DNA from: a virus
DNA: 22,055 nucleotides
Direction: 5' to 3' (one strand)
IMG/VR virus record: IMGVR_UViG_3300024231_000061
Coordinates: 1 to 22,055 of that record
Below, in pieces: positions 1 to 12,064 of the stretch. The notes beneath the pieces were generated by a model, which saw only the letters and a list, made by a program, of their open reading frames with translations, had not been told where the DNA came from and ran no database searches. Made by a program: the position numbers and the translations under genes. How positions within the stretch are numbered: position 1 is the stretch's first letter; every line of letters begins with the position of its first letter.

Positions 1-420
1 CACCTCGTGGCAAGCGTGATTGTGAGGGAATCAACCGTAGAGTTGCATCATGGCGATTGTGTTGGCGTTGACATACAGGCAGCAGTTATAGCAAGTCGAG
101 TGGGAATCCATACGGTATGCCATCCTCCTGTAGACGAGTCACTCCGAGCACACCACAACTCAGATACTATATTGCCCCAACTAAACCACTTCGCTCGTAA
201 CCGAAATATTGTCGAAGCGAGCGACGTTCTCATCGTCATACCATACCAAGACGAGTGGCAACCGCGTGGTGGTACTTGGTACACGCATGACTACGCTGTC
301 AAGAAAGGAGTTGATGTAGCAATCATCGAACAGAGCGGCACCATACGATGGCAGTGGGGATGTCATATGGCAGAGCGGACTGCGGGCGAGAACCCAGACG
401 GCGACACGCGGCAGGACTAA
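1..420 (+). CDS. SLOG/DprA-like Rossmann protein, 5' end missing
   Basis: The frame is open to the first base, so the true start lies outside the window; an internal GTG at 7 is unlikely to be the start. What remains (139 codons) has the signature of the SLOG/DprA-like nucleotide-binding superfamily: HGDCVGVD near the left edge, a CHPP segment, RNRNIVEASDVLIVIP, then a RGGTWYTHDYA motif. In this family HGDxxGxD normally lies about 40 residues from the N-terminus, so roughly one strand-helix unit is probably lost to the window edge. Members bind nucleotides or nucleotide-derived ligands; the substrate here is unknown. The tail after about residue 115 (rich in G, D, R, E) looks disordered. Stop TAA, then a 27-nt gap to the next gene. 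Fold assignment is fairly firm; biochemical role is not known. Confidence 0.75.
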   Translation, partial: HLVASVIVRESTVELHHGDCVGVDIQAAVIASRVGIHTVCHPPVDESLRAHHNSDTILPQLNHFARNRNIVEASDVLIVIPYQDEWQPRGGTWYTHDYAVKKGVDVAIIEQSGTIRWQWGCHMAERTAGENPDGDTRQD

Positions 421-447
421 ATAATCGTGAATGATAAAGGAACTTTT

Positions 448-723
448 ATGAAAGTGAACACAAACTGTACGGGAGGTTGGAAAGACCTCGAAGTCTATTT
501 CTGTGACAGCGCAGAGAAACCCACCATATTCCGAGTATATGAGAGCATGTATGAGAGCATGAAGAATGCCTTCTATGGTTCAACTCAGATACCAGTATTC
601 ATCATCGGATACCATATCGTCGACAACAACACACCCGAGAAGTGTATCTGTTCCCAGAAGTCGTTCATCAATATGCGCAACGTCACCCACATCAAGGTGG
701 TTGGCAGGAGTCAAGACATATGA
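448..723 (+). CDS. Conserved hypothetical phage protein, 91 aa
   Basis: The ATG at 448 is preceded by AAGGA about 8 nt upstream, which favours it over an in-frame GTG at 427. The product begins MKVNTNCTGGWKDLEVYF and has alternating hydrophobic stretches typical of a small alpha/beta protein, with three cysteines (C7, then two near residues 70-72 in KCICS). No transmembrane segment or signal peptide is apparent and no family is recognised. It ends in a 4-nt ATGA overlap with the next gene, so the two are probably translationally coupled and co-transcribed with the MazG-like gene downstream. Confidence 0.7.
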   Translation: MKVNTNCTGGWKDLEVYFCDSAEKPTIFRVYESMYESMKNAFYGSTQIPVFIIGYHIVDNNTPEKCICSQKSFINMRNVTHIKVVGRSQDI

Positions 724-1094
724 GCGATAGCGACGAGGACAACGTGGTCTCTTTGTCAGAGTTCCGTGTTAAGCGAGATGCCTCTGAGTATAGACTATCA
801 GAAGATTTGGAAGATTTGTTCCAAGACTTCGCCACGGAAGATCTAATTGCTATTCAAGAGATCCTACAGGGACTGTCTGGTTTGGACGAGAGGGAGAAGA
901 CAATAGAACCTCTAGAGTTTGTACGGTTTGAGGTGGGACTCCGTTGTCTCACCGATATATTTAATGGCACTATGTTCTCGACTGAGTGTGTCAGCAAGAG
1001 TGATGAAGTATACCAGAGTCTTGAATCAATAAATGAGCAGTTAGTGAACCTACAGATGTGGGCGAATAAATGGAGAGATGATAACAATGCGTGA
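720..1094 (+). CDS. Acidic hypothetical phage protein, 124 aa
   Basis: The start ATG at 720 overlaps the stop of the preceding gene as ATGA; GGAG about 10 nt upstream can serve as ribosome site. An upstream in-frame ATG at 642 lies wholly inside the previous gene and is rejected. The product is strongly acidic, opens with SDSDEDNVVSLSEFR (the VVSLxxFR stretch is frequent at N-termini of small phage proteins) and is otherwise predicted largely helical, with possible short coiled coils around residues 24-55 and 95-118. No enzyme motif was seen. It overlaps the MazG-like gene by 8 nt. Function unknown. Confidence 0.7.
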   Translation: MSDSDEDNVVSLSEFRVKRDASEYRLSEDLEDLFQDFATEDLIAIQEILQGLSGLDEREKTIEPLEFVRFEVGLRCLTDIFNGTMFSTECVSKSDEVYQSLESINEQLVNLQMWANKWRDDNNA

Positions 1095-1713
1095 AATGAC
1101 AGCAAGAGAAGCACTATATACACTGTGCGTAAAACTTGGACCAATACCCACCACACTTCGGGAGGACAACCTGTCTCCTGATGAGATTCGTGTGAACGAG
1201 GCAGTTCGGGTACTTATGGATTCAATCTTGGAGGAAGAAGTGCGGCGTGAGAGTGGACAAGTTGTAGAGTTGATCGACCTCATTCGCGGATGGCACCATG
1301 CTCGCAACCTGATCGATGGTGCTACTGACAAGGATCAGTACATGAAACTGATTCAGGAAGCAGGTGAACTCTCCGACAATATCTGTAAGGGCAAAGACAT
1401 CCGAGACGACATCGGTGACATGATGGTAGTTCTCATCAATATCGCCGAGCGCAATAACCTGACCGTTGGTCAGTGCCTCCAGACTGCTTGGGACGATATC
1501 AAAGACCGCAAGGGTACTATGGTCGACGGAGTCTTCATCAAAGAAGGCGACGACCTACCTGCTGTCGAAGAGTATGAGGAATATATGATGATTCCAATTG
1601 CTCCTCCACAGGATCACTACACCGAATACACCGAAGAAGAATTGGAAATGCACCGAGAGATGCAAGCAAGCATGTTCCCACACGAACAGTTTAGTATCGA
1701 AAAGTATTTGTAG
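1087..1713 (+). CDS. MazG-like nucleotide pyrophosphohydrolase with terminal extensions
   Basis: Residues about 66-152 match the MazG/all-alpha NTP pyrophosphatase pattern: WHHARNLIDG, then QEAGELSD (E91 and E94 as the first acidic pair), then DDIGDMMVVL (D107, D108, D111 as the second), ending with WDDIKDRKGTMVDGVFIKE, the usual C-terminal signature. These enzymes hydrolyse (d)NTPs to monophosphates and bind Mg2+ through the four acidic positions. Phage MazG proteins are thought to adjust nucleotide or alarmone pools during infection. A 65-residue N-terminal helical extension and an acidic, Tyr/Glu-rich tail of about 55 residues flank the core, making it longer (208 aa) than a minimal MazG domain. 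ATG 1087 is chosen because GGAGAG lies at useful spacing; the in-frame ATG at 1078 would be too close. It overlaps the upstream gene by 8 nt. Confidence 0.82.
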   Translation: MREMTAREALYTLCVKLGPIPTTLREDNLSPDEIRVNEAVRVLMDSILEEEVRRESGQVVELIDLIRGWHHARNLIDGATDKDQYMKLIQEAGELSDNICKGKDIRDDIGDMMVVLINIAERNNLTVGQCLQTAWDDIKDRKGTMVDGVFIKEGDDLPAVEEYEEYMMIPIAPPQDHYTEYTEEELEMHREMQASMFPHEQFSIEKYL

Positions 1714-1716
1714 TAG

Positions 1717-2580
1717 ATGCCCGATTTGATTATGGCAAGGGCAGGTGAGGGCGCTGGTGATATGGTCCTCGCTCTTAACAATTGCTTTGCTTGGGCAGAG
1801 TTGTATAAGACTACTGTTGAACTCGAATACCACTGGGTCTCCGACAAAGACTTCAAGTATGTTGATGCAGACCCAGAGACTATGGGAGAACGTGTTGACT
1901 TGATGCATTCAAAAATGATGAACCCAGAACTTGTTCGCGTCGAGCATGTTTGGGGTTCAGACGTGTTTGAGTACCACAATGCACACAACAACCTGAGACT
2001 GAGGGCGAAGATTCAACCTCGCAAATTCTTCTTTCCTAAAAAGGTGGGTGGAGGGCATTTGCATCCGCATATCAATCAAGTCCCATTCGGTGGTAAGATG
2101 GGGCAGGCAGAATGGGAATGGGCAGAGAAACCCACCATATCGAAAAAGATTGTGATGTGGGACTTCGAACTCAACAGAGAGGGCGTGAAAGAATACAAGG
2201 TGCCCAACCGTGGTATCGACTGGGTGCATATTAGGGAGAAGGCATATGAACTCTTCCCCGACTATGAGTTTGTGCACCTAACATACAGGGACTCCTTTCA
2301 GAAAGCACACGACGAGATACGAGACTGTGCGTTTTGTCTTGGGTATGACGGCATGTGGCATATGGTATTAAGAAACTTCGGCAAGTTGTTTGTCACGTTC
2401 ACTGACAACATGTCCCACTGCCACGCCAATACAGTGCCCAGTTGCTCGGCGTTTAGAGATGGACAGATATTTGATTACCTTGAGAGACTCTCCGACCCAG
2501 AGTTTCTGGCGAAGGAACAGAGGTTCTCTCAGTATATGCACAATAGAAGGATGAAGTGGTATGCGAATCCTAGAGGATAA
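1717..2580 (+). CDS. Glycosyltransferase-like (GT-B/GT9-like) protein
   Basis: A 287-residue protein starting MPDLIMARAGEGAGDM, which resembles the N-terminal phosphate/nucleotide-loop region of GT-B fold proteins, followed by a Trp/Tyr-rich segment (FAWAELYKTTVELEYHW). Near the C-terminus, CLGYDGMWHMVLRNFGKLFVTF (residues 207-228) resembles the conserved GxxxxxH...GKP region by which heptosyltransferase-type GT9 enzymes hold the sugar nucleotide, but the match is partial. Similar proteins occur in marine myoviruses without a known acceptor. No clear ribosome site precedes ATG 1717; ATG 1735 is an alternative. It follows the MazG-like gene by 3 nt and overlaps the downstream 2OG oxygenase gene by 20 nt, which implies shared expression and perhaps a shared substrate. 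Family call tentative; that it is a real gene is secure. Confidence 0.6.
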   Translation: MPDLIMARAGEGAGDMVLALNNCFAWAELYKTTVELEYHWVSDKDFKYVDADPETMGERVDLMHSKMMNPELVRVEHVWGSDVFEYHNAHNNLRLRAKIQPRKFFFPKKVGGGHLHPHINQVPFGGKMGQAEWEWAEKPTISKKIVMWDFELNREGVKEYKVPNRGIDWVHIREKAYELFPDYEFVHLTYRDSFQKAHDEIRDCAFCLGYDGMWHMVLRNFGKLFVTFTDNMSHCHANTVPSCSAFRDGQIFDYLERLSDPEFLAKEQRFSQYMHNRRMKWYANPRG

Positions 2581-3226
2581 TATCTTCGTTTGGGAAGAAG
2601 CGATGAGTCGTGAGTGGTGCGAAAACCTCACCCGCATAACAGACGAAAAGATAGAGATCGCCGAGAAGACTGGAGACATTGTCTTTAATGAAGGTGGAGA
2701 GTACAACGCAAACGGTTGTTACTTTCGAGAAAACGACAAGAGGATAGACACCTCTCTGCTCATGTCCAAATTTGGATCCCTACATGTAAAGCAAGAGGAA
2801 CTTCTCCTTTCTCTTGAGCACTGCCTACAAGAAATGCGGTCACACTATAGGGACATAACACGTGCTTCTCCTCCTGCCATTGAACAGTGCGAGGAGATAT
2901 GCTGCAAGGTCCAGAGGACTCCCCCTGGAGGTGGATTCTGCGACATGCATTATGAGCAGGGCGGCAATCAAGGAGAGAGTGCACGACGCTGGGGTGTCTG
3001 GATGTTGTACTTGAATGACGTGACCGAAGGAGGGAAGACCGATTTCCCTGTGCAGGATCTCTCTGTTCAACCAACAGCGGGGACTATGGTCATATGGCCA
3101 GCAGCATACACCCACCCTCATAGGTCTGCGCCAGACCTTGGACAGTACAAATACATTGTCACTGGTTGGTTCCAATATTACATAGAAGGTGAATCCTTTC
3201 ATCCACGAGAGGTCAGTAGAAGATGA
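2561..3226 (+). CDS. 2OG-Fe(II) oxygenase, prolyl-4-hydroxylase-like
   Basis: The 221-residue product has the double-stranded beta-helix signature of phage 2-oxoglutarate/Fe(II) dioxygenases. CKVQRTPPGGGFCDMHYEQG supplies an H-x-E metal pair (H130, E132) in place of the usual H-x-D. WMLYLNDVTEGGKTDFP (about 147-163) and AGTMVIWPAAYTHPHRS (about 173-189) are classic family blocks, the latter holding the distal Fe ligand (H185 or H187). K197 in YKYIVTGWF is placed to bind 2OG. Such enzymes hydroxylate protein or nucleic-acid substrates; none is indicated here. The gene sits between the glycosyltransferase-like gene (20-nt overlap) and the radical SAM gene (ATGA overlap). Hydroxylation followed by sugar transfer is a plausible but unproven theme. 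Confidence 0.85.
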   Translation: MRILEDNIFVWEEAMSREWCENLTRITDEKIEIAEKTGDIVFNEGGEYNANGCYFRENDKRIDTSLLMSKFGSLHVKQEELLLSLEHCLQEMRSHYRDITRASPPAIEQCEEICCKVQRTPPGGGFCDMHYEQGGNQGESARRWGVWMLYLNDVTEGGKTDFPVQDLSVQPTAGTMVIWPAAYTHPHRSAPDLGQYKYIVTGWFQYYIEGESFHPREVSRR

Positions 3227-4203
3227 AACTTGAACGAGTAGTCCTTGAAGTATCTGGTGGGTGCAATTACACCTGCACTATGTGCCCACAGACCAGTCCT
3301 GGGAGGGGCAAGGAGTGGACGCGGAAGATGCATCTATCGCAGTTCGAGGACATCCTTGACCAGATCACTCCAAAGTACGGGACTCCCCAGATAAACCTTG
3401 AGGGTTCAGGCGAACCGACTCTCGCCAAAGACCTTGACAAGTACATCGCTGCTGTCAAGAAGCGAGGACTAAAGGCATACATGTACACCAACGCATTCCG
3501 TTTGGAAGGCGACTACATGAAGCGAGTTGTTGATGCTGGCATCGACTTCATCCGTTGTTCGGTCATCGGGTACAATCCAGAGAAGTACCGCCACTGGATG
3601 GACGTGGACAACTTCCACAAAGTTCGACAGAACGTCATAGAACTCCAAGACTATATCGCAAACTCCTCCTCCAGCGCCGAGGTGTCCTCCTATCACCTGA
3701 TCACTGACAACGGGAGGGTAGACTATGAGGTGGGTCAATATCAGTCTAATTTCATACAACAGACGGGCACCAAGGCATACATCTGGAAGATGCATAACTG
3801 GTCTGGGAACTATGACACCAACGGCAATGCTCGAGGTGGCGCTGAGAGGAAGACCTGTGGTCGACCATTCAGTCCTGAGTTGACTGTCCGCGCCGGAGGT
3901 AATGGCAAACTTGGGGCAGTGACACCGTGTTGTCAGACTCTGGGACCACCAAACGAATCCAAGTCAGTCCTTGGTCACTTCGAGGACCAGACCTTCGAGG
4001 AAATCTACTGGGGTGACAAGTATGAAGAACTGCGACTTGCCCACACAGAAGAACGGTTCGACGATATCGAATACTGCAAGAACTGCGACTTCCTGTATGA
4101 CGACCCCGAAGTGCTAGTCTGGTCCAATGACCCCACCGCCCGAACAAAGCATATGCTCGGCACAGACTTCTCCCTGAACGACAATATCATCGTAAGTTGT
4201 TGA
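3223..4203 (+). CDS. Radical SAM protein with SPASM-like C-terminus
   Basis: Residues 13-22 contain the CxxxCxxC cluster motif (C14, C18, C21) that binds the 4Fe-4S cluster and SAM. GSGEPTL (61-67) is the SAM-binding GGE-type motif and YTN (88-90) follows at the expected third strand. The C-terminus carries further cysteines (C212, CC at 236-237, CxxC at 285-288) around a GHFEDQTFEEIYWGDKYEELR block, the usual layout of a SPASM/twitch auxiliary-cluster domain. SPASM proteins often modify peptides, but some act on other substrates. No precursor peptide is obvious nearby. Start overlaps the 2OG oxygenase gene as ATGA. The last codons (GTA AGT TGT TGA) are supplied by the promoter cassette that follows, so the C-terminal VSC is cassette-derived. 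Confidence 0.88.
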   Translation: MKLERVVLEVSGGCNYTCTMCPQTSPGRGKEWTRKMHLSQFEDILDQITPKYGTPQINLEGSGEPTLAKDLDKYIAAVKKRGLKAYMYTNAFRLEGDYMKRVVDAGIDFIRCSVIGYNPEKYRHWMDVDNFHKVRQNVIELQDYIANSSSSAEVSSYHLITDNGRVDYEVGQYQSNFIQQTGTKAYIWKMHNWSGNYDTNGNARGGAERKTCGRPFSPELTVRAGGNGKLGAVTPCCQTLGPPNESKSVLGHFEDQTFEEIYWGDKYEELRLAHTEERFDDIEYCKNCDFLYDDPEVLVWSNDPTARTKHMLGTDFSLNDNIIVSC

Positions 4204-4280
4204 TTCTATTCAACTAATTCACGTTTGCCTTTGGACCTCAAATATGAGATAATACTTGTATTGTGAATGAGGAGAGAAAC
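4193..4280 (+). promoter_or_regulatory. Promoter cassette copy 1 (subtype A)
   Basis: The TAAGTTGTTGAT box starts at 4193; a dyad-like TTGAT-N4-TTCAA lies at 4200-4213; -35 TTGCCT at 4225-4230; 17-nt spacer beginning TTGGACC; -10 GATAAT at 4248-4253 with an extended TG (4245-4246). The leader contains TGTATTGTGAATGAGGAGAG, whose GAGGAGAG is the ribosome site for ATG 4281. From -10 to ATG is 33 nt. Unlike most copies, the TAA is out of frame with the upstream gene, which instead stops at TGA 4201-4203 inside the cassette. Confidence 0.85.
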
Positions 4281-4472
4281 ATGAACTTTGGAACTGTTAT
4301 CGCTGGAATTGTAATGGACTTCGTGATCTGTTTGGTAGTCGCGACGAACTTCCTACAGGACGTCCACGTCGCCGTGGCGATTGCAGGTGCCGTGCTGCTC
4401 TCTTGTGTGAAGTTCTGCGTCCAAGTTGGAGTCGTGACGACGGTAAGGACAGCAATGAGGAAAGAAGTATGA
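4281..4472 (+). CDS. Small membrane protein, first member of a tandem duplicate pair
   Basis: A 63-residue product, MNFGTVIAGIVMDFVICLVV onward, with two hydrophobic segments (about residues 4-24 and 29-52) and a basic end (RTAMRKEV), suggesting a two-pass inner-membrane microprotein. ATG 4281 has a strong GAGGAGAG ribosome site; the in-frame GTG at 4263 lies in the promoter leader and is rejected. It is expressed from promoter cassette copy 1 and overlaps its paralogue as ATGA. About 80 nt at the 5' end differ at only 7 positions from the next gene by eye, so this is a recent tandem duplication. It carries about 7 extra residues in the middle (around HVAVAIAGAVLL) relative to its sister. Function unknown. 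Confidence 0.75.
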   Translation: MNFGTVIAGIVMDFVICLVVATNFLQDVHVAVAIAGAVLLSCVKFCVQVGVVTTVRTAMRKEV

Positions 4473-4639
4473 ACTTTGGAACTGTTATCGCTGGAATTGC
4501 AATGGACTTCCTGATCTGTTTAGCAGTCGTGACGAACTTCCCACAAGAGAGTAGCGCCGCTACTATACTGATGTGTGTTGGAGTCGTCGTGATCGCAAGG
4601 ACAGCATTCAAGGTCTGGACTTCAGACCTGATTGGATAG
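4469..4639 (+). CDS. Small membrane protein, second member of a tandem duplicate pair
   Basis: A 56-residue paralogue of the preceding gene: MNFGTVIAGIAMDFLICLAV matches MNFGTVIAGIVMDFVICLVV, and the C-terminal VGVVVIARTAF matches VGVVTTVRTAM. The middle is shorter, so the two hydrophobic segments are closer together. The ribosome site (AATGAGGAAAG) is itself a copy of the cassette leader, so the duplicated unit includes the leader. Start overlaps the first gene as ATGA; stop TAG lies 2 nt before promoter cassette copy 2. Function unknown; probably a host-envelope or membrane-directed accessory protein by analogy with other phage microproteins. Confidence 0.75.
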   Translation: MNFGTVIAGIAMDFLICLAVVTNFPQESSAATILMCVGVVVIARTAFKVWTSDLIG

Positions 4640-4641
4640 TG

Positions 4642-4726
4642 TAAGTTGTTGATTTGATTCAGTTTATTCAGGTTTGCCTTTGGGCGTCAAATGAACGATA
4701 ATAGTATCTGAATTGAGGAGAAAGTA
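4642..4726 (+). promoter_or_regulatory. Promoter cassette copy 2 (subtype B)
   Basis: TAAGTTGTTGAT starts at 4642, just after stop TAG 4637-4639. TTGATTTGATTCAG at 4649-4662 is the dyad with one extra mismatch. -35 TTGCCT 4674-4679, 17-nt spacer, -10 GATAAT 4697-4702, leader GTATCTGAATTGAGGAGAAAG, ATG at 4727. From -10 to ATG is 30 nt, which defines subtype B. Confidence 0.85.
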
Positions 4727-5023
4727 ATGCGAATATATCAAGTGGTGCAGCAAGTGTCTTATGAGGGAAGCAGGGTTATCGCCGTGTACTCATCTTTGGA
4801 ACTTGCCAATGACGCAGTGCGAGAGATACACACGCACGTAGATGATTACAGCATTGGATACAACGATGAGGCGTCTGAATTGTTCACTGATGAAAATGGC
4901 GGGTTGTGTTTCTCTCGCAGCGATTCATCGTTAGTTATTCGCTCCCTTGAACTGGATGTTGATATGTCTCAGTTTACGACTCGGGAGCAACGGTGGGAAG
5001 CTGCCCACGGGGAAGATGAATGA
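4727..5023 (+). CDS. Hypothetical protein, DUF7336-like layout, 98 aa
   Basis: The product starts MRIYQVVQQVSYEGSRVIAVYSSLELANDAVREI. This pattern of a first beta strand, then VYSSxExA..AV and a closing acidic strand with LELD resembles small DUF7336-type phage proteins, but the family number is only a suggestion. It is acidic, soluble, without TM segment. ATG 4727 has GAGGAGAAAG at ideal spacing and lies directly behind promoter cassette copy 2, so this is the first gene of the 4727-7375 operon. It overlaps the following small gene by 4 nt (ATGA at 5020). The product of 5184-5642 has a similar N-terminal layout, so the two may be distant paralogues. Confidence 0.72.
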   Translation: MRIYQVVQQVSYEGSRVIAVYSSLELANDAVREIHTHVDDYSIGYNDEASELFTDENGGLCFSRSDSSLVIRSLELDVDMSQFTTREQRWEAAHGEDE

Positions 5024-5187
5024 ACCCATCTCAGGAAGAAACATTTGCTCGTTGCATCGGGCGATTCATTAAAAACGACATGCCTATAGACTGGGCGCAC
5101 GTTTTTGCCTGCATGAAAGCAAATGGTATTCCAGAGAGGAAGACCCAATTTATGATGGACCAATACAACTTAGGTAATTGGAGATGA
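5020..5187 (+). CDS. Small hypothetical protein, 55 aa
   Basis: A short gene filling the gap between its neighbours: it starts in an ATGA overlap with the gene before and ends in an ATGA overlap with the gene after. GGGGAAG lies about 4 nt upstream of the ATG. The product, MNPSQEETFARCIGRFIKND and onward, is predicted helical, with two cysteines (C12, C31) and a basic middle (GIPERKTQ), and ends NLGNWR. It contains no TM segment. The tiling by 4-nt overlaps on both sides is the strongest argument that it is real. Function unknown. Confidence 0.7.
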   Translation: MNPSQEETFARCIGRFIKNDMPIDWAHVFACMKANGIPERKTQFMMDQYNLGNWR

Positions 5188-5642
5188 GAAATACCATGGA
5201 TGTAATAGAATATAAAGTTGTCGGCGTATATGGCGCTCTTGATGATACATACGATATCGCCGCGTGGGATACCCTCGAGGAAGCGAGTGAACATGCAAAT
5301 GCGATCATACTCAACGACTGCATCTTAGGCAATATGCGCTACACCAGCATCGAGGTCGTCAAGGTATCCGAAGAGAGGGTGGATATTTCTGTCAAACCAG
5401 CACCCAAACTGTTTGACCCAGACTACGAGAGACAGGGTGTTGCGCCCAAAGCAGTCGAAGTTGTTGACCCAAAAGACTTTTGGGAGATGGTGGAGATTCT
5501 GCGTAATTTAGAAGATAGGTTCGTTGGGTTTCGTGATGAAGTGATGCTCAATCTCGGTGACGCGATGCTCGATATCAAGCATATGCAAGGCGATGTTGAT
5601 ACGCTCAAGAATGAGAAGATCAGAATAGGAGAATCGCAATGA
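5184..5642 (+). CDS. Hypothetical protein with C-terminal coiled coil
   Basis: The N-terminal half (MDVIEYKVVGVYGALDDTYD...TLEEASEHANAI) has the same strand-loop-helix layout as the 4727 gene product. The C-terminal part, from about DPKDFWEMVEILRN to the end, shows heptad-like hydrophobics and is probably a coiled coil, suggesting oligomerisation. Start choice: ATG 5184 forms an ATGA overlap with the gene before; ATG 5196 (MDVIEYK) is an alternative with GGAG 12 nt upstream. The in-frame TTG at 5178 is not needed. It ends in ATGA with the next gene. Function unknown. Confidence 0.72.
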   Translation: MRNTMDVIEYKVVGVYGALDDTYDIAAWDTLEEASEHANAIILNDCILGNMRYTSIEVVKVSEERVDISVKPAPKLFDPDYERQGVAPKAVEVVDPKDFWEMVEILRNLEDRFVGFRDEVMLNLGDAMLDIKHMQGDVDTLKNEKIRIGESQ

Positions 5643-5902
5643 ATGTAGCAACGCTGGAACTGGTACACAGACGATTGCTCGACAAGGCAACAAGCATGGA
5701 TGCCGAGATCGAGAAGTATCGAACAGGTGAACTGCAAGACGATGCCATGTACGGTCGGTTGGTCTATAAGCAGTCCGGCGTCATGGCGTGTGTCCTCACC
5801 ATCAACGATATGATGAGTGAGGCATTTCAGGCAGGGCGTGTATCAAAGGAAGAGGACGATATGTCCGACGAGGTCAGTCAGTTAGTGAAGATGGGACGAT
5901 GA
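5639..5902 (+). CDS. Hypothetical helical protein, 87 aa
   Basis: The start overlaps the preceding stop as ATGA, with AGGAG about 9 nt upstream. The product (MNVATLELVHRRLLDKATSM...) is predicted almost wholly helical; residues about 5-35 form an amphipathic helix and a Met-rich segment (NDMMSEAF) follows. It ends acidic and then basic (VKMGR). No domain is recognised and no membrane segment is seen. It shares an ATGA overlap with the next gene, so it is part of the same translationally coupled operon. Confidence 0.7.
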   Translation: MNVATLELVHRRLLDKATSMDAEIEKYRTGELQDDAMYGRLVYKQSGVMACVLTINDMMSEAFQAGRVSKEEDDMSDEVSQLVKMGR

Positions 5903-6099
5903 TTATCTATCACATAGAAAGAAAGGTAGATGGTGAGTGGCAGGATGTATGCCGTCCCACTGAACACGAGGAACTCGCAAGGAAGATCTGCCACATGAAG
6001 GCAAGCAAGGATAGCACCACCATCCGTGTAGCAACCTATGATGACAGGGAACCCGAGGCACGTTTGTTGTGCCTGATGAATGACACAGGATGGGAATGA
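5899..6099 (+). CDS. Small hypothetical protein, 66 aa
   Basis: The product starts MIIYHIERKVDGEWQDVCRP, looks like a compact alpha/beta protein, and resembles the many phage small proteins that open with a strand carrying Y-x-I-E-R-K-x-D-G-E-W. It has three cysteines (C18, C31, C58). No catalytic motif and no TM segment. It is tied on both sides by ATGA overlaps. The ribosome site is weak (AAGATGGGACG). Function unknown. Confidence 0.68.
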   Translation: MIIYHIERKVDGEWQDVCRPTEHEELARKICHMKASKDSTTIRVATYDDREPEARLLCLMNDTGWE

Positions 6100-6281
6100 G
6101 ACCCGAAGACGTGAAGGTGGGACAAACCCACTTCATCCACCCATTCCGTAAGAACCGGAATGCTGGCGCCAAGGTCATCGTCGAGACATTATTCGGTGTC
6201 GATATGATGGTCAGGGTGCTTCACACAGACGAACCCGTCATGGTATTTTTCACAGAACTCTGGAGGGGAGAAGAAATATGA
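6096..6281 (+). CDS. Small hypothetical protein, 61 aa
   Basis: ATG 6096 is preferred: it overlaps the previous stop as ATGA and has AGGA 5 nt upstream. An in-frame ATG at 6090 would add two residues. The product (MRPEDVKVGQTHFIHPFRKN...) has a short beta-rich sequence with VKVGQ and IVETLFGVDMMVRVLH, consistent with a small SH3-like or beta-barrel fold, but this is only an impression. It ends in an ATGA overlap with the ligase gene and contains the ligase ribosome site (GGAGGGGAG) in its last codons. Confidence 0.68.
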   Translation: MRPEDVKVGQTHFIHPFRKNRNAGAKVIVETLFGVDMMVRVLHTDEPVMVFFTELWRGEEI

Positions 6282-7375
6282 TTACACGCGAAACAATATT
6301 CAAGGTCGACTCGAAGGGCAAAGTCCGAGAGTGGCGTATGGAGATCGACGGTGCCAACTATCGCACTGTTGCTGGTGTCCAAGGTGGACAGCAGGTTATC
6401 TCTGGTTGGAAGGAAGCAAAACCCAAGAACGTAGGTCGTTCAAATGCTACCACTGCGGAAGAACAGGCGGTTGCCGAGGTTGATGCCAAGTACACCAAGA
6501 AACTCGACGGTGAATACCACGAGACTCTAGAGTCCACGTCGGTGGCAAAGTTCTACAAACCTATGCTTGCCACTAAGTGGGAAGACCTGAAGGACAAGAT
6601 CGATTATCCGGTCTACACCCAACCCAAGTTGGACGGTGTACGTTGCATCGTGAACGCAGAAGGTATGTGGAGTCGCACTGGTAAGGCAATCACCTCTTGC
6701 CCTCATATCATCGAGCAACTGGCACCTTGGTTTGAGTTGCACCCCGATCTGGTTCTGGATGGTGAGTTATACAACCATGACCTGAAGGATGACTTCAACA
6801 AGATCATCAGTCTGGTACGCAAGACCAAACCTACAGAGGAAGATACTGCTGAGGCAGCAGAGACTGTGCAATACCACATGTATGATGTGCCCAGCGTGGA
6901 CCTTGACTTCCACGAGAGATCTGCCCAGTTGAGAGGCATCGATGGCGATGCACTGGAAGTCGTTAAGACTCTGGTTGCATACAACGAGGAGGAAGTTGAC
7001 GCGCACTTCGGAGAATTTATCGGAGAAGGTTACGAGGGTGGTATGATACGTTTGAACGCACCCTATGAACAGAAGCGCAGCAAGACGCTGATGAAGCGCA
7101 AGGACTTCGAAGATATGGAGTTTGAGGTCATCAGCATTGAGGAAGGGCAAGGCAACTGGGCAGGTTATGCCAAGCGTGTCGTGTTCAAACTCGAAGACGG
7201 TCGAGAGTGTGGGTCTGGTCTAGCAGGTAACCAAGAGTTTGCCCGAGACCTACTGGCGCGGCGAGACGAGTATGTCGGAGGACAGGTGACCGTACAGTAC
7301 TTCACCCGAACACCGGATGGGGTGCCACGGTTCCCTATCGCCAAGGCACTGTACACAAACAGGAGAGATGTATAA
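6278..7375 (+). CDS. ATP-dependent DNA ligase with N-terminal WGR-like domain
   Basis: All covalent nucleotidyltransferase motifs are visible in the 365-residue product: motif I KLDGVR with adenylated K117; WSRTGK (131-136); motif III DGELYNH (161-167); motif IV EGYEGGMIR (250-258); motif V LMKRKDF (271-277). An OB-fold-like segment follows from about 280, with VQYFTRTPDGVPRFP near the end. The first 80 or so residues have a WGR-like pattern (SKGKVREWRMEI, PKNVGRSNATTAEEQAVAEV), a putative nucleic-acid-binding module that some phage ligases carry. The enzyme seals 3'-OH/5'-phosphate nicks in DNA using ATP, in replication and recombination. The start has a strong GGAGGGGAG site and overlaps the preceding gene as ATGA. 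It is the last large gene of the operon begun at cassette copy 2. Confidence 0.93.
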   Translation: MITRETIFKVDSKGKVREWRMEIDGANYRTVAGVQGGQQVISGWKEAKPKNVGRSNATTAEEQAVAEVDAKYTKKLDGEYHETLESTSVAKFYKPMLATKWEDLKDKIDYPVYTQPKLDGVRCIVNAEGMWSRTGKAITSCPHIIEQLAPWFELHPDLVLDGELYNHDLKDDFNKIISLVRKTKPTEEDTAEAAETVQYHMYDVPSVDLDFHERSAQLRGIDGDALEVVKTLVAYNEEEVDAHFGEFIGEGYEGGMIRLNAPYEQKRSKTLMKRKDFEDMEFEVISIEEGQGNWAGYAKRVVFKLEDGRECGSGLAGNQEFARDLLARRDEYVGGQVTVQYFTRTPDGVPRFPIAKALYTNRRDV

Positions 7376-7378
7376 TCT

Positions 7379-7636
7379 ATGACAAGTAAGCATGTGCAAA
7401 CAAAAGAACGTGGACTTGATTGGTACATGAAGTGGATATCCACCGTGCTGATCTTGAGTAGCGTGGCGTTTCGCTCTGCCGGACCAGAGTACCGAGACTG
7501 GGATATCACCATCGGGTTCATCGCAACGTGCGGTTGGACCACCGTCTCCATAATGTGGAACGACCGTGCGCTCATCCTGCTCAACGGTGTCATGGGTGCC
7601 ATGCTCGGGTCTACCTTGATCCAGATCTGGTTGTGA
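7379..7636 (+). CDS. Small two-TM membrane protein, DUF6552-like
   Basis: The 85-residue product has a charged N-terminus (MTSKHVQTKERGLDWYMKW) followed by hydrophobic segments at about 19-35 and 44-60 and a third at about 64-83 (RALILLNGVMGAMLGSTLI). The pattern W-x-S-x-V-L-I-L..AFRS, then GWTTVSIMWNDRALILLN, recurs in small phage membrane proteins that I associate, without certainty, with DUF6552. It begins 4 nt after the ligase stop; AGGAG lies 13 nt upstream, a long spacing. Role unknown. Confidence 0.7.
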   Translation: MTSKHVQTKERGLDWYMKWISTVLILSSVAFRSAGPEYRDWDITIGFIATCGWTTVSIMWNDRALILLNGVMGAMLGSTLIQIWL

Positions 7637-7637
7637 T

Positions 7638-8330
7638 ATGAAAGGCAAGCACCCGAGAAAAATCTTTGACGAGTACCTGTCCGAGTCGGAGAGGACAGAA
7701 GTATTGGAATCAATCTATAGACTGAGAGACCACTGGTGTCCTCTATTCGGTGGCATCGACAAAGCGTTTCTATTGCCTGCTGCTCTCTACGCTAAAAGAA
7801 GAAACGCCGAAGAATACTCAAAGTTACAACTCGCAGCGCGAGCAGATATGATGACCGAGTTCAGTTGGTTATACACTAAATTGGTGGAGACAGTATCTGA
7901 TCGGTATGGACTCCCTGCGGTGTTCAGTCCCAACTTGAATTTCCCAGGATTCCATATATTTTTTGGACCAGTAGACAACAGGGGTTTGGACTCTACGCAG
8001 GAGTATTACCTTGCGGCAAAGGAAAGAGTCCACCTCGACAACTTCCCAGATTTCATCCCAGAATTCGAGAGACAAGAACACATTGAGTCTTTTATCGTCC
8101 CGATCCAACTGCCAAAGAATCGCGACACAAACCTCTGGTGGTGGGACTCTGTAGATAAGATAACAAAAGAACCGCCGAACATACTCACTTATTCGGAAGG
8201 TATGCTCGGGCACTGGCATGGGCAATACCCACACGCCATCGGCGAAGTCGTCCTCGAGGAGGGCGAAGCGCGAATCTCCCTCCAGTTCCATGTCTGTATC
8301 AAACCCGATCGGGTTATCCTCTTTTGGTAA
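7638..8330 (+). CDS. Predicted 2OG-Fe(II) oxygenase-like double-stranded beta-helix protein
   Basis: A 230-residue protein with a mostly helical first 90 residues and a beta-rich second half. The second half holds a plausible metal triad: H132-x-D134 in RVHLDNF, H199 in QYPHAIGE, and R212 in ARISLQFHV, placed where R binds the 2OG carboxylate. GFHIFFG (104-110) just before the H-x-D supports this. Together this resembles the H-x-D...H...R geometry of 2OG/Fe(II) oxygenases, but the blocks are not the standard prolyl-hydroxylase ones, so the family is inferred. A Trp run (NLWWWDS) is unusual. Only 1 nt separates it from the previous gene and no clear ribosome site is seen. Its stop TAA is the first codon of promoter cassette copy 3. 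Confidence 0.6.
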   Translation: MKGKHPRKIFDEYLSESERTEVLESIYRLRDHWCPLFGGIDKAFLLPAALYAKRRNAEEYSKLQLAARADMMTEFSWLYTKLVETVSDRYGLPAVFSPNLNFPGFHIFFGPVDNRGLDSTQEYYLAAKERVHLDNFPDFIPEFERQEHIESFIVPIQLPKNRDTNLWWWDSVDKITKEPPNILTYSEGMLGHWHGQYPHAIGEVVLEEGEARISLQFHVCIKPDRVILFW

Positions 8331-8415
8331 GTTGTTGATTCTATTCAAGTTATTTCCACTTGTCTTTGGACATGGTTTGTGAGATAATATCTGTATTGTG
8401 AATGAGGAGAGAGTT
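8328..8415 (+). promoter_or_regulatory. Promoter cassette copy 3 (subtype A)
   Basis: The TAA stop of the upstream gene (8328-8330) begins the box TAAGTTGTTGAT. TTGATTCTATTCAA dyad 8335-8348; -35 TTGTCT 8360-8365; 17-nt spacer starting TTGGACA; -10 GATAAT 8383-8388 with extended TG; leader TGTATTGTGAATGAGGAGAG; ATG 8416. From about 8346 onward it is nearly identical to copy 4. Confidence 0.87.
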
Positions 8416-8685
8416 ATGGGTTTAGCAACGATGGATAATATGGATACGGTCGTCGGATCTTTTGTTGAGAAAGACTTTGGGAAGACCCACGAGTATAGTC
8501 TCATCGGCGACGATATGTTTGGGTTGTTGTGGATGGGTGAAGAGTACCCACACAAACTCTGGACTCTCGACGGATTCCGTCACGCCCGAATCTTAAAGAC
8601 TGTCGCATACATCATCGTCGACGAGGACGAGTATGGACTTCCCGTTATCGAGAAGTGGGCAATCAAACAGCACCAGCAGTTCTAA
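8416..8685 (+). CDS. Hypothetical protein, 89 aa, flanked by twin promoter cassettes
   Basis: ATG 8416 follows GAGGAGAG; the in-frame GTG 8398 is in the leader. The product (MGLATMDNMDTVVGSFVEKD...) is acidic and soluble, with a beta-rich core (HEYSLIGDDMFGLLWMGEEYP) and a C-terminal VIEKWAIKQH stretch similar to ends of other small phage proteins. No enzyme motif. It stands alone between cassette copies 3 and 4, which share a block of roughly 65 nt, so it is a single-gene module that homologous recombination could delete or amplify. Its stop TAA is the first codon of copy 4. Confidence 0.72.
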   Translation: MGLATMDNMDTVVGSFVEKDFGKTHEYSLIGDDMFGLLWMGEEYPHKLWTLDGFRHARILKTVAYIIVDEDEYGLPVIEKWAIKQHQQF

Positions 8686-8770
8686 CCTATTGATTTTGTT
8701 CAAGTTATTTCCACTTGTCTTTGGACATGGTTTGTGAGATAATATCTGTATTGTGAATGAGGAGAGAGAT
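8683..8770 (+). promoter_or_regulatory. Promoter cassette copy 4 (subtype A)
   Basis: Stop TAA 8683-8685 begins the diverged box TAACCTATTGAT. TTGATTTTGTTCAA dyad 8690-8703; -35 TTGTCT 8715-8720; 17-nt spacer; -10 GATAAT 8738-8743 with extended TG; leader with GAGGAGAG; ATG 8771. From the TTCAA half-site to the ribosome site it is essentially the same sequence as copy 3, so the two are a recent duplication or are kept alike by gene conversion. Confidence 0.87.
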
Positions 8771-9109
8771 ATGAATGAAGAAATGGACGTAGCACTGGAT
8801 AACCTGATTGACCGTATCGTCGAGGACTATGCTCGATACACCAAGGACTTTGATCATCCTCGAATCGAGAGATTTCATGCTGGTCTGACCATTAGTGAAG
8901 GTAAAAAGTACATCAAGGTTATCAAGGGTGACACCGCCGACGATCAGACATCGGTCTGGGGATTCATTGTGAAAGAAGATACCCCCAAGTTCAAGAGAGG
9001 AGATATCCTGAAACCTGCGGGATGGGCAGCACCTGCCACCAACAAGGCGCGTGGTAATATCCTGAGCGAAGATTACTCGATCCAGTGGACTGGTCCAAAC
9101 TATCTCTAA
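8771..9109 (+). CDS. Conserved T4-superfamily hypothetical protein, 112 aa
   Basis: The product has blocks I recognise from widespread uncharacterised phage proteins: GKKYIKVIKG (about 44-53), then VWGFIVKEDTPKFKRGDILKPAGWAAPA (about 63-90), KARGNIL, and a terminal WTGPNYL. The GDILKPAGW...ARGNI..WTGPxYL pattern is common in T4-like and larger phages and probably forms a compact beta domain; its function has not been established to my knowledge. ATG 8771 has GAGGAGAG at good spacing. Promoter cassette copy 4 drives it. The stop TAA overlaps the ribosome site (AAGGAG) of the small ORF that follows. Confidence 0.8.
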   Translation: MNEEMDVALDNLIDRIVEDYARYTKDFDHPRIERFHAGLTISEGKKYIKVIKGDTADDQTSVWGFIVKEDTPKFKRGDILKPAGWAAPATNKARGNILSEDYSIQWTGPNYL

Positions 9110-9117
9110 GGAGTTTT

Positions 9118-9196
9118 GATGATCCCATGCCCGATAAAACTGTTGACCTGCCCACCGTCGGGTGAGGGGGCATCATGCATCGGGGTCATCATTTTT
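9118..9196 (+). promoter_or_regulatory. Structured RNA element with U-run (terminator or attenuator-like)
   Basis: GATGATCCC (9118-9126) can pair with GGGGTCATC (9182-9190, one G-U), and ATTTTT follows (9191-9196). Inside, GGGCAT (9168-9173) can pair either with ATGCCC (9127-9132) or, through GGGCA, with TGCCC (9149-9153). The second option extends to a CACC-GTCG-GGTG hairpin. Two mutually exclusive inner pairings above a U-run are the layout of an attenuator or conditional terminator upstream of the 9220 gene. The same DNA also encodes the candidate small ORF 9119-9223, so the pairing could be incidental. Confidence 0.45.
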
Positions 9197-9223
9197 CAAG
9201 AATACATTAAGGAACAAGCATGA
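9119..9223 (+). CDS. Candidate small ORF / leader peptide, 34 aa
   Basis: AAGGAG (9108-9113), which includes the upstream stop, lies 5 nt before ATG 9119. The reading frame runs 34 codons and ends at TGA 9221-9223 in an ATGA overlap with the next gene. The product starts MIPCPIKLLTCPPSGEGASC and has three cysteines; no TM segment or domain is seen. Excellent ribosome site and perfect coupling are typical of genes in this genome, but the same DNA can fold strongly (9118-9196), so it may be a leader peptide whose translation governs the downstream gene, or simply a small gene. Confidence 0.5.
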   Translation: MIPCPIKLLTCPPSGEGASCIGVIIFQEYIKEQA

Positions 9224-9465
9224 GAGTTTTGTTATACACAGAAGAATATGCCAAGGAAGATATCCTTGCTGCTGAACCCGCCAAGTCTCTAGACTATGAC
9301 GACCCAGTGAAGGCAGTGCTGGAAGGCACTCACCTGATGGACGGTGTTGAGTACAAGTCTGCCTTGCTCACCATGGACGACGGGACACCCAAGGCATACT
9401 ACTGGTGGAACTACAAGATCAACCGTCACGGCGCACAGAGGTTCTATGATGCAGATGTTGCGTGA
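9220..9465 (+). CDS. Hypothetical protein, 81 aa
   Basis: The product (MRVLLYTEEYAKEDILAAEP...) is acidic and probably a small alpha/beta protein; GVEYKSALLTMDDGTPKAYYWWNYKI looks like a beta hairpin rich in aromatics. AAGGAA lies about 8 nt upstream of the ATG. It may be controlled by the structured element at 9118-9196. It overlaps the next gene by about 20 nt. No family recognised. Confidence 0.68.
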   Translation: MRVLLYTEEYAKEDILAAEPAKSLDYDDPVKAVLEGTHLMDGVEYKSALLTMDDGTPKAYYWWNYKINRHGAQRFYDADVA

Positions 9466-9721
9466 GAAAACTAGTTGGACAAGTTGTAAACACGAAGTGA
9501 CCAACATGGACTACCTTCTACAAGAAGACGGTCGATGTGTCGCCATCCGCAAGTTCGGGGACGATCAACCTTGGCAGAAGTTCACACGACCCATGCCATT
9601 CAGTAAGCGTTGGCGGTCGTTCACTAAACTCAAGGAAGCAGTTCCAACTGAGTTTGTCGCACCCTTCACCCCAGATCCATGGGACAATACATCATACAAT
9701 TCATTAGAGGCATACATGTAA
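9446..9721 (+). CDS. Hypothetical protein, about 91 aa, start uncertain
   Basis: Frame 2 is open well upstream, but the earlier part is a shadow of the preceding gene. Candidate starts are ATG 9446/9449 (AGAGG just upstream), 9455, and 9506 (MDYLLQEDGRCVAIRKFG, 71 aa). The core from DYLLQEDGRC to the end is the likely folded part, with WQKFTRPMPFSKRW and a Pro/Asp/Trp tail (FTPDPWDNTSYNSLEAYM). No family recognised and no TM. The stop TAA shares its last A with the ATG of the next gene. Confidence 0.6.
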   Translation: MMQMLREKTSWTSCKHEVTNMDYLLQEDGRCVAIRKFGDDQPWQKFTRPMPFSKRWRSFTKLKEAVPTEFVAPFTPDPWDNTSYNSLEAYM

Positions 9722-9909
9722 TGGATAAAATGGTCCGCATTGAATCTTGTAAAGACAGCATGCGTTGGTATTCAGACAAGATCGGCGAGTACTTTCCTGT
9801 CCGGCACGAGGGCGAGACGGAGACATATGTCTCTACACTGGATTCGTATAACACTGGTAATTACGTTCAGAACACGGATGTTTCTATTTTTAATGGAGTA
9901 ATTGAGTAA
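9721..9909 (+). CDS. Small hypothetical protein, 62 aa
   Basis: ATG 9721 forms a TAATG junction with the previous gene, with AGAGG 12 nt upstream; the in-frame ATG at 9679 lies inside the neighbour and is rejected. The product (MDKMVRIESCKDSMRWYSDKIGEYFPVRHEG, in two parts MDKMVRIESCKDSMRWYSDK and IGEYFPVRHEG) has the pattern of a short helix followed by a GxYFPV strand and an ETETYVSTLDS strand, suggesting a small SH3-like beta domain. The KIGxxFPV motif is common in small phage proteins. It ends in TAATG with the next gene. Function unknown. Confidence 0.65.
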   Translation: MDKMVRIESCKDSMRWYSDKIGEYFPVRHEGETETYVSTLDSYNTGNYVQNTDVSIFNGVIE

Positions 9910-10184
9910 TGGCAAAAGCAAAGAAAATAATCCTACCTCCCGTTGACGTTGTTGGTCGTAAAGTGTCATGGACACCTTCCAAACTGTCAGATAAATTGTA
10001 CGGAGAAGTTGTAGCAGTTAAGTTAAAACCACATCCGCATCCTAAATATCCTAACAGCAGCAACCGCATACTGAAGACTGTTCTTCATGTTATGATTCCA
10101 GATGGGCGTATCTTCAAGATGTCCGGAGAGATGGAAGACCTCAAGAAGATCGGAATGGTTGCGGAGTCTAATAACGAGGAATGA
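9909..10184 (+). CDS. Basic hypothetical protein, 91 aa
   Basis: The product starts MAKAKKIILPPVDVVGRKVS and is Lys/Pro-rich, with a His/Pro stretch (KPHPHPKYPNSSNR) in the middle and an acidic end (ESNNEE). GRKVSWTPSKLSDKLYGEVVAVKL and VLHVMIPDGRIFKM resemble strands of a small beta-barrel. A nucleic-acid-binding role would fit the basic charge but is not shown. It starts in a TAATG junction and ends 1 nt before the large membrane protein gene, whose ribosome site (GAGGA) lies in its last codons. Confidence 0.68.
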   Translation: MAKAKKIILPPVDVVGRKVSWTPSKLSDKLYGEVVAVKLKPHPHPKYPNSSNRILKTVLHVMIPDGRIFKMSGEMEDLKKIGMVAESNNEE

Positions 10185-10185
10185 T

Positions 10186-11157
10186 ATGTTTTGGGTCACA
10201 CTTTTAACTTCACTGTCCATTGCGGGAGTCGCGGGTTGGTATTCAATCGTCGGACTCATGGCAATATTCTCTGGGTCTGCGATCTCTATCGCTATCATGG
10301 GAGGGGTGCTCGAAGTCGGCAAGTTGGTAACTGCCTCTTGGTTGCACTCTAACTGGAAGGGACTACAGTGGTGGTTGAAGTTGTACCTAACCAGTGCGGT
10401 GGTGGTGCTTATGCTCATCACTTCACTAGGCATCTTCGGTTATCTCAGTAAGGCACATCTTGAGCATTCAATATCAACAGGTGGAACAAATGAACTTCAG
10501 ATCGAAAACCTTCAGCGACAAATTGGAAACCAGCAGCGTTCTATTAAGGATGCAGAAACAGTTCTCTCGCAACTCGACGCCACGGTTCAAACCCTCATCG
10601 ATTACGATAGGATCAGAGGCAAGGACGGTGCGATCGCTACAAGGCAAGCGCAAGGTGAGGAACGTGCGACTCAAAACGAGAGCATCAATAATGCATATGC
10701 TAATATCGAGCGACTCCAATCGAGTCTCAGTCCCTTGCAGAGAGAACGACTCGAAATTGAAGTTGAAGTGGGTCCTCTCAAGTATATCGCTGAACTGATC
10801 TACGGTGACGATGCAGAGAATATGTTCGACGAAGCAGTCCGCGTCGTTATCCTTCTCCTCATCTTCGTGTTTGACCCACTCGCTATTGCCTTGTTGCTCG
10901 TGGCGACCAGAGACTTGACCACGAACAATCGCAGAAAGGATTATTATGACGACGGCAACCTGAAGGTGCACCCGAGCAATGTTGTAGACGTTGACGATAG
11001 TTTGACCGAGATGACATTTGAAGACGACATCCCAGAAGATGAAGACCTGTCTGAGTATGAAGTGGTTGTGGCAGAAGAAGAAGACCCAACTGAGATCATA
11101 CGAAGACGCAAGCACGAAGACGGTTGGTACACGCAAGGTGGTACGCCGAAGATTTGA
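10186..11157 (+). CDS. Four-TM membrane protein with central coiled coil and acidic tail
   Basis: ATG 10186 with GAGGA 5 nt upstream is chosen; the in-frame ATG at 10102 overlaps the previous gene by 80 nt. The 323-residue product has hydrophobic segments at about 3-23, 25-50, 67-87 and 218-240, a Gln/Glu-rich coiled coil at about 100-195 (IENLQRQIGNQQRSIKDAET and onward) between TM3 and TM4, and a very acidic cytosolic-type tail (about 268-302). The GVLEVGKLVTASWLHSNW block and LMLITSLGIFGYLSKAHLE recur in uncharacterised membrane proteins of marine myoviruses. Charge and layout suggest an inner-membrane protein whose coiled coil lies between membrane passes. A role in membrane remodelling, lysis timing or superinfection exclusion is possible; none is demonstrated. 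Confidence 0.75.
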   Translation: MFWVTLLTSLSIAGVAGWYSIVGLMAIFSGSAISIAIMGGVLEVGKLVTASWLHSNWKGLQWWLKLYLTSAVVVLMLITSLGIFGYLSKAHLEHSISTGGTNELQIENLQRQIGNQQRSIKDAETVLSQLDATVQTLIDYDRIRGKDGAIATRQAQGEERATQNESINNAYANIERLQSSLSPLQRERLEIEVEVGPLKYIAELIYGDDAENMFDEAVRVVILLLIFVFDPLAIALLLVATRDLTTNNRRKDYYDDGNLKVHPSNVVDVDDSLTEMTFEDDIPEDEDLSEYEVVVAEEEDPTEIIRRRKHEDGWYTQGGTPKI

Positions 11158-11182
11158 CTTTGAGTAACAGTTGAGATAGAAT
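11154..11182 (+). promoter_or_regulatory. Sigma70-like promoter, possibly giving a leaderless mRNA
   Basis: TTGACT (11154-11159) and TAGAAT (11177-11182) are separated by 17 nt, overlapping the end of the upstream gene. The ATG at 11189 lies 7 nt after the -10, exactly where transcription would be expected to start, and no Shine-Dalgarno precedes that ATG. It lacks the cassette boxes found at the other promoters. Confidence 0.5.
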
Positions 11183-11188
11183 AACATT

Positions 11189-11812
11189 ATGAATATATTT
11201 CCGATAGAAAGAACACCATCGGGTGAACCCTGCCCCATCGAATCAGCACGAGTCCAGTGCGACCAGCATGCACAGAAGATGTACCTAGAGTCTGCGCAGA
11301 TGTTATCCACTGCCCACCGCCTACTTGACGGTGCGGTTGAGTTTGTCCCGAGTACGGATAAACAGGGCAACATGGTCTATCTCAAGTCAGGCAAACTCCG
11401 TGTCAAGAAGCACTGGAGACTCGAAGACGATCGAGAAGATGCCATGTACTTGGCGGTTCACCCCAAGCACCCAACCACTCTCTGGACTATGGAGTCTGCT
11501 GAGAACTATGACTGGCACTATGCACACTTTGTAGAGTTGCTGCTGGAGTTCGAACGCAGACACGGGAAGATGCCCAAGACAGCAGTGATGAAAGATGTTC
11601 TGGCACGAAGACCAGATAACATCCCACGAGTACCATCAACTCCAATCAAACTTGCCATGAAGCAATTCCCACAGTGCGTGGTCCGAGACCGCGATGGCAC
11701 AATCGACGTGGTGGAGTCATACAGAAACTTCTATATAGAAGACAAGGAGCGGTTCGCTACTTGGAACAAAGGGAGACAAGCACCCGAGTGGTGGACTGCC
11801 CGAGTTAATTGA
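11189..11812 (+). CDS. Conserved phage protein with CDxH...STAHR motif
   Basis: The 207-residue product starts MNIFPIERTPSGEPCPIESA and carries C24-D-Q-H27-A-Q-K30-M and E34SAQML-STAHR (40-44), then later WTMESAENYDWHY and FERRHGKMP. This combination of an N-terminal MNIF, a C-D-x-H..K-M-x-L-E-x-A-Q-x-L-S-T-A-H core, H-P-x-x-x-W-x-x-E-S and N-Y-x-W is widespread in T4-like and cyanophage genomes as an uncharacterised protein. The conserved C, D, H, K and E cluster suggests an enzyme active site or metal site. The final RQAPEWWTARVN is also typical. Probably expressed from the promoter at 11154; the start may be leaderless. No function can be assigned. Confidence 0.8.
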   Translation: MNIFPIERTPSGEPCPIESARVQCDQHAQKMYLESAQMLSTAHRLLDGAVEFVPSTDKQGNMVYLKSGKLRVKKHWRLEDDREDAMYLAVHPKHPTTLWTMESAENYDWHYAHFVELLLEFERRHGKMPKTAVMKDVLARRPDNIPRVPSTPIKLAMKQFPQCVVRDRDGTIDVVESYRNFYIEDKERFATWNKGRQAPEWWTARVN

Positions 11813-11824
11813 TGAGAGGCAAAT

Positions 11825-12064
11825 ATGAGCGAGTATAAGAAAGGCAACACCCGACTGTTCAACATTCGGGTTCCTGAATACCTCCACGCAGAGTTTAAAG
11901 TAATCGCTAAAGAGCGTGGCGTGTCTATGGCAAACCTGTTGTTAGGTTACATGGAGAGAGTGGTCAACGGAGAAGAGGAAGCGGCGATCAAGACCAAAGA
12001 GAATGCTGACTTTGATCCTCTTGCTGACATCCGCAACCAGTATAGGGCGGGTGAAGACTTTTAA
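11825..12064 (+). CDS. Ribbon-helix-helix (Arc/CopG-type) DNA-binding protein
   Basis: The 79-residue product has the RHH pattern: a strand RLFNIRVP (10-17), helix 1 at about 18-31 (EYLHAEFKVIAKER), a turn GVS (32-34), and helix 2 at about 34-48 (MANLLLGYMERVVN). The strand would insert into the DNA major groove as a dimer. The tail after residue 50 is acidic. RHH proteins are repressors or activators of phage genes or antitoxin-like; no toxin partner is adjacent. AGAGG lies 5 nt upstream of ATG 11825. The stop overlaps the next start as TAATG. It is the only obvious sequence-specific DNA-binding protein in the window, so it is a candidate (untested) regulator of the promoter cassettes. Confidence 0.8.
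   Translation: MSEYKKGNTRLFNIRVPEYLHAEFKVIAKERGVSMANLLLGYMERVVNGEEEAAIKTKENADFDPLADIRNQYRAGEDF

Follow-up and report, generated by a model that had tools for sequence, protein, structure and literature searches.

A putative saccharide-modifying module of T4-like marine phages: a GT9-like and BtrN-like gene pair, joined in one clade by a 2OG oxygenase

T4-like marine phages known as pelagimyophages carry cassettes of radical SAM and glycosyltransferase genes in variable glycan clusters for host recognition, and the authors who described them propose that the phage glycosyltransferases modify the host O-chain (PMC7029224). Radical SAM genes have likewise been reported in T4-like marine phages in another study (PMC7150976); according to both papers, such genes are often met in marine phage contigs, usually with no assigned function. 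The phages compared here resemble the pelagimyophages in being T4-like and marine, in their variable glycan gene clusters and in their radical SAM cassettes, but a pair of GT9-like and BtrN-like genes, an inserted 2OG oxygenase gene and a carbamoyltransferase gene are not described in the consulted passages of PMC7029224. We found no description of the GT9-like/BtrN-like pair in the open-licence literature, a scope that does not cover subscription journals. The enzyme families are known, and the conserved pairing of the glycosyltransferase (GT) with the radical SAM enzyme seems to be undescribed.

The closest described radical SAM enzymes are BtrN, DesII and BlsE. Their substrates are an aminocyclitol or sugar nucleotides, BtrN being a 2-deoxy-scyllo-inosamine dehydrogenase. 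For the other two proteins of the locus the closest described systems are the GT9 heptosyltransferases WaaC, WaaF and TibC and the bacterial prolyl 4-hydroxylases (3itq/5hv0).

The window is the entire virus record IMGVR_UViG_3300024231_000061, a fragment of 22,055 bases (22 kb). Its phage belongs to a T4-like, mainly marine group, the large relatives of which carry a T4-type major capsid gene. Three ORFs on the + strand, all with ATG starts, encode a GT-B glycosyltransferase-like protein (1717..2580, 287 aa), a 2OG-Fe(II) oxygenase of the prolyl-4-hydroxylase type (2561..3226, 221 aa) and a radical SAM/twitch enzyme (3223..4203, 326 aa). The ORF coordinates confirm the layout described in an earlier note on this DNA, with overlaps of 20 nt (2561-2580) and 4 nt (3223-3226) and a gap of 3 nt between the end of a MazG-like ORF (1713) and the start of the GT-like ORF (1717). 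The gene order is kept in relatives, at identities of 33-46% for the GT-like protein, 37-53% for the 2OG oxygenase and 71-81% for the radical SAM protein. Because these relatives retain all three genes in the same order, we regard the trio genes as real.

The upstream neighbour in the same unit, the MazG-like ORF (1078..1713, + strand, 211 aa), matches phrog_1992 (E 4.5e-39) and PF03819 (E 0.0011), the latter with 19.6 bits and thus below the cut-off of 22. Its N-terminal part of about 50 residues (1078-1230) corresponds to a stand-alone small ORF of 54-86 aa, beginning MTPREALYHL, in five sister phages (L003, L004, L006, L007 and L009), and the MazG-like ORF of the window is a gene fusion with this small ORF.

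Naming the first protein from its sequence failed: it matches nothing in Pfam or PHROGs (both searched to E 1) or in NCBIfam (E up to 0.1), and a profile of 48 GT-like sequences has none among the PDB chains (E up to 10). Since the family databases are silent, the label GT-like first became testable by fold prediction, and the fold alone was informative. An alignment built from nine relatives (A1) was scanned against viral contigs and gave 182 relatives, from which 48 diverse members were aligned (A4) as input to AlphaFold2. The resulting model has a pLDDT of 85.3 and a pTM of 0.87, with low prediction confidence in the loop 111-121. Foldseek ranks the WaaC heptosyltransferase best (E 2.3e-4) and also finds TibC, and VIA-align returns TibC (Z 11.8 over 213 residues, 4.1 A) followed by WaaF and WaaC (Z 10.6); many GT-B structures score Z 9-12 against the model, and the TM-scores are just 0.35-0.47. 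The earlier assignment of this protein as GT-like is thus supported by a confidently predicted GT-B fold, nearest to that of the GT9 heptosyltransferases.

Residues that are invariant in the 48 sequences include G12, G14, D15, Y210, D211, G212 and W214. Two motifs stand out, an invariant one of the GxGxGD type near the N-terminus, and YDG(M/I)WH. We tentatively place D15 on the catalytic Asp of WaaC, in its GD motif, and YDGMWH on its DTGxxH motif. The protein resembles WaaC, WaaF and TibC in the predicted fold and in the comparable places of two motifs, one N-terminal, Gly-rich and containing an Asp, the other a C-terminal DG..H. It differs from them in being shorter, in an identity of 10-14% with no sequence-level match in Pfam or the PDB, and in having a radical SAM enzyme as its partner. 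The first protein is GT-B and GT9-like by predicted fold, and as the sequence-level test failed we keep it out of the GT9 family.

The third protein matches PF04055 (7e-15) and the SPASM family PF13186 (1.7e-08) and the second matches PF13640 (2.6e-10), which agrees with the radical SAM/SPASM and 2OG oxygenase assignments made before. In 31 phage and cellular radical SAM sequences, the motif C14xxxC18xxC21 (CX3CX2C) is invariant, and so are the auxiliary-cluster cysteines C212, C236, C237, C285 and C288, five candidate ligands that would fit one twitch-domain auxiliary [4Fe-4S] cluster. BtrN (4m7s) is the top match in a profile search (E 6.6e-16), in which the second domain aligns to BtrN 185-240, as well as in Foldseek (1.2e-11) and in VIA-align (Z 22.5, 237 residues, 2.8 A). 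Next in VIA-align are DesII (20.4) and BlsE (19.9), with enzymes that act on peptides behind them (19.6 and below); peptide-acting enzymes such as AnSME and SuiB, at Z 19-20, are only about 2-3 below BtrN. Because the top three fold relatives act on an aminocyclitol or sugar nucleotides, the comparison supports a sugar-like substrate, short of proof. The phage enzyme has the CX3CX2C motif and the twitch-type auxiliary-cluster cysteines in common with BtrN, DesII and BlsE. Compared with BtrN, it is about 20% identical, has a longer inter-domain insert with conserved IWKMHNWSGNY and TCGRP motifs, and lies beside glycosyltransferases in phages and SAR11, whereas BtrN belongs to an aminoglycoside cluster. 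A short second radical SAM/twitch ORF (14720-15388, 222 aa, TTG start) is also present in the window and has no more than weakly similar counterparts in the fetched relatives.

The twitch domain also bears on RiPP-type maturation, in which the SPASM/twitch enzyme would modify a small phage peptide and the other two enzymes would finish it. Many SPASM maturases are among the weak NCBIfam matches of the third protein, none of them close to its cut-off, and the small ORF upstream in the five sister phages could be taken for a precursor. However, in the window this ORF is part of the MazG-like gene, inspection by eye gave no leader/core pattern in it, the cysteines form one auxiliary-cluster (twitch) set and not the full SPASM set, and BtrN outranks every RiPP maturase by sequence and by fold. 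A search for conserved small ORFs near the trio gave no precursor candidate: none is common to all trio loci, the single candidate being the MazG-linked one in five loci, in line with the earlier remark that no precursor peptide is obvious. We consider RiPP maturation highly improbable.

Occurrences of the unit were found by searching with the GT gene alone, which gave 66 distinct GT loci. This radical SAM gene follows within three genes in 62 of them, the contig stops too early in three, and the remaining locus (L092) does not fit, having a DNA methyltransferase-like ORF after the GT. The two genes are direct neighbours in 48 loci, usually with an overlap of 4-44 nt. Eight loci, all in the clade of the window, have the 2OG gene in between (a ninth contig, L008, is cut before the GT), and L084 has an insertion of two further genes, one of which belongs to the HAD family, a type that elsewhere adjoins the carbamoyltransferase. 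As the 2OG gene is limited to this clade and the pair is found in about 60 distinct loci, it is the pair, not the trio, which is the conserved unit. The tight coupling from which the earlier note had argued for a shared substrate therefore stands at least for the first and third genes, by their co-occurrence, and the trio as a unit conserved in other phages is not supported. Many other phages, and SAR11 too, have the radical SAM gene but not this GT, so that the GT depends on its radical SAM partner more than the partner depends on the GT.

In the radical SAM tree, the trio members are nested among GT-less ones and the GT-bearing set needs two changes. We dropped the idea that the pairing arose twice, as the GT-bearing rows as one clade were not rejected (p-AU 0.77, with the better likelihood). 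GT/radical SAM pairs were also seen in two MAG contigs labelled Sphingobacteriales and Euryarchaeota (L176, L177); since the L176 assembly also contains T4-type capsid genes, both appear to be phage contigs that ended up in cellular bins. L054 has six radical SAM genes within about 10 kb (1018-12077), with unknown proteins between them, and neighbours of similar size are found in many GT-less relatives (L030-L074).

The typical gene order around the pair is GT8-like, HAD phosphatase-like, NodU-type carbamoyltransferase, small membrane protein, GT, radical SAM, GT25 and GT8-like. Where enough upstream sequence is available, the HAD gene is found upstream in 49 and the carbamoyltransferase in 36 out of 63 loci; downstream of the pair, GT25 is found in 35 and the GT8-like gene in 37 out of 66 loci. 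The annotated genome C48C1 (Kyanoviridae) has the same arrangement, and a sulfotransferase lies directly 3' of the trio in L004-L006 and L008. In G001 (151,660 bases), the nearest large phage with the trio, genes for a carbamoyltransferase, GT25, GT8, an NDP-sugar epimerase, a sulfotransferase and a methyltransferase are located at 2-13 kb, just past a tail-lysozyme-type gene. The trio and a second sulfotransferase are located at 44-48 kb, about 30 kb from this glycan cluster. Every recognisable gene product around the pair acts on sugars. Among the neighbours scanned, no flippase, polymerase or lipid-carrier enzyme was found beside the cassette, nor was a gtrABC-type flippase/bactoprenol transferase pair seen.

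SAR11 homologues of the radical SAM enzyme, with 57-65% identity, lie in O-antigen-type clusters together with a DegT aminotransferase, sugar epimerases/dehydratases, NTP_transferase and GT2. The GC content of the trio phages is 43-48%, compared with 22-30% for the SAR11 loci, and because of this difference the host of the window phage is probably not SAR11.

The second protein, besides PF13640, matches phrog_61 (3.7e-30) and the profile of the bacterial P4H 3itq (E 1.2e-10). Its metal/2OG motif HxE...H...K, formed by H130, E132, H187 and K197, is invariant in eight sequences (A2), and these sequence features point to a P4H-type double-stranded beta-helix with Hx(D/E)...H...K. The match to the bacterial prolyl 4-hydroxylases (3itq/5hv0) covers the C-terminal jelly-roll, and the distal His/Lys spacing is alike in these and phrog_61, but the phage protein has HxE, not HxD, and its gene is inserted between the GT and radical SAM genes. 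Another 2OG oxygenase (PF13759) is encoded at 12064-12648 of the window, and an unassigned protein with an HxD...H...R pattern by eye, which has a relative in L003, at 7638-8330.

The likeness to enzymes acting on peptidyl-proline suggests a modification of proteins, by which the P4H-type oxygenase would hydroxylate a fibre or baseplate protein, the GT9-like enzyme would glycosylate it and the radical SAM enzyme would alter the sugar or the peptide, giving a glycosylated virion. TibC, the best VIA match of the GT, glycosylates an autotransporter, and a gene of the tail lysozyme/baseplate type (phrog_13211) often adjoins the cassette, as in L097, L139, L141, C48C1 and G001. Furthermore, the radical SAM gene of L012-L017, a lone relative beside the tail tube gene, lies between the genes for head closure (phrog_218) and for the DNA end protector (phrog_429). 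Yet in most relatives the pair has no intervening 2OG gene, and the SAR11 copies of this radical SAM enzyme are encoded among NDP-sugar genes, so that we judge this explanation unlikely. A 148-aa neighbour of the cassette had been considered as 'gp4'; this was rejected, as it is the tail lysozyme/baseplate-type gene and the head-closure gene is the neighbour in L012-L017.

The trio also lies in a region of nucleotide metabolism, with the MazG-like gene, a dCMP-deaminase-like ORF at 13779, a DNA ligase and an exonuclease, and a phage alpha-glucosyltransferase acting on DNA is GT-B as well (Z 9.2). These observations would suit a hypermodification of phage DNA, with a nucleobase as the substrate of the trio; both glycosyltransferases and radical SAM enzymes have such a role in known phages with hypermodified DNA. 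The known thymidine and cytosine systems, however, need a dUMP or dCMP hydroxymethylase of the thymidylate synthase fold (PF00303), and this family is absent from all pair-bearing phage records including G001; PF02511 (ThyX) was also sought in G001 and is absent there, none of these records being certified complete. PF00303 is present in G015 and G018, which do not have the pair, and in a Sphingobacteriales genome (G016). Moreover, the cassette carries GT25, GT8, sulfotransferase and carbamoyltransferase genes, and we regard DNA hypermodification as quite improbable. Among the substrates that the earlier note had offered (a phage protein, a host envelope component or a nucleobase), an envelope-type or virion glycan fits best, and the nucleobase is disfavoured by the lack of PF00303 and PF02511 in G001.

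We favour, with reasonable but not firm confidence, the reading that the trio of this T4-like phage is a module for modifying a saccharide, within a larger phage glycan-assembly system. The gene order, predicted folds, cysteine sets, co-occurrence and neighbours are observed; the sugar substrate, the type of reaction, the order of steps and the final acceptor are inferred. In a plausible order of steps, the GT9-like enzyme would transfer a sugar from an activated donor, and the BtrN-like enzyme would make a 5'-deoxyadenosyl radical and take a hydrogen from a sugar C-H. The result might be oxidation to a keto sugar, an epimerisation or the loss of a substituent (deoxygenation), and in a dehydrogenase-type reaction the auxiliary [4Fe-4S] cluster would accept the second electron. 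In the clade of the window only, the 2OG oxygenase may add or oxidise a hydroxyl on the same product. The carbamoyl- and sulfotransferases and the GT25 and GT8 enzymes encoded elsewhere in such phages may extend and decorate the chain. Since SAR11 has this radical SAM enzyme in O-antigen-type clusters, and the pelagimyophage authors argue likewise for the glycosyltransferases of their phages (PMC7029224), the host LPS/O-chain appears to be a more likely acceptor than the virion coat.

A broader reading, which we put forward tentatively, is that marine T4-like phages have a dedicated pathway to a radical-SAM-modified, carbamoylated and sulfated oligosaccharide, with the GT9-like and BtrN-type enzymes as an obligate couple. 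That this pathway would bring radical chemistry, known mainly for small-molecule aminosugars, to an assembled phage or host surface glycan is likewise possible but doubtful. The link of the radical SAM enzyme to a GT partner, to glycan clusters and to the SAR11 O-antigen-type clusters gives a testable substrate class for a large radical SAM family. If the reading is true, abundant ocean viruses use antibiotic-type radical sugar chemistry to reshape host or virion surfaces, which would be a point of contact with phage recognition and superinfection exclusion.

The next transcription unit starts with a promoter-like module, TTGCCTTTGGAC-N11-GATAATA, at 4225..4254 on the + strand, 22 nt past the last stop of the trio. 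Seven near-identical copies of the module TTGYCTTTGGRC-N11-GATAATA, with the 17-nt spacing of the sigma-70 type, are found on the + strand of the window at 4225, 4674, 8360, 8715, 12678, 13326 and 17348, compared with 0.01 expected, and three of them are followed by the same leader TTGTGAATGAGGAGAG. There is no such module within 1-4203; as the first one begins after the trio and none lies before it, the trio appears to be transcribed as the 3' end of a longer unit. In the fetched relatives no exact match was found apart from L001, which is the window's own sequence, and the module is probably a repeated promoter of this phage's own. Behind a promoter module, the stretches 4266-4360 and 4454-4548 form a tandem duplication (89% over 95 nt) that contains the start of a small ORF, MNFGTVIAGI.
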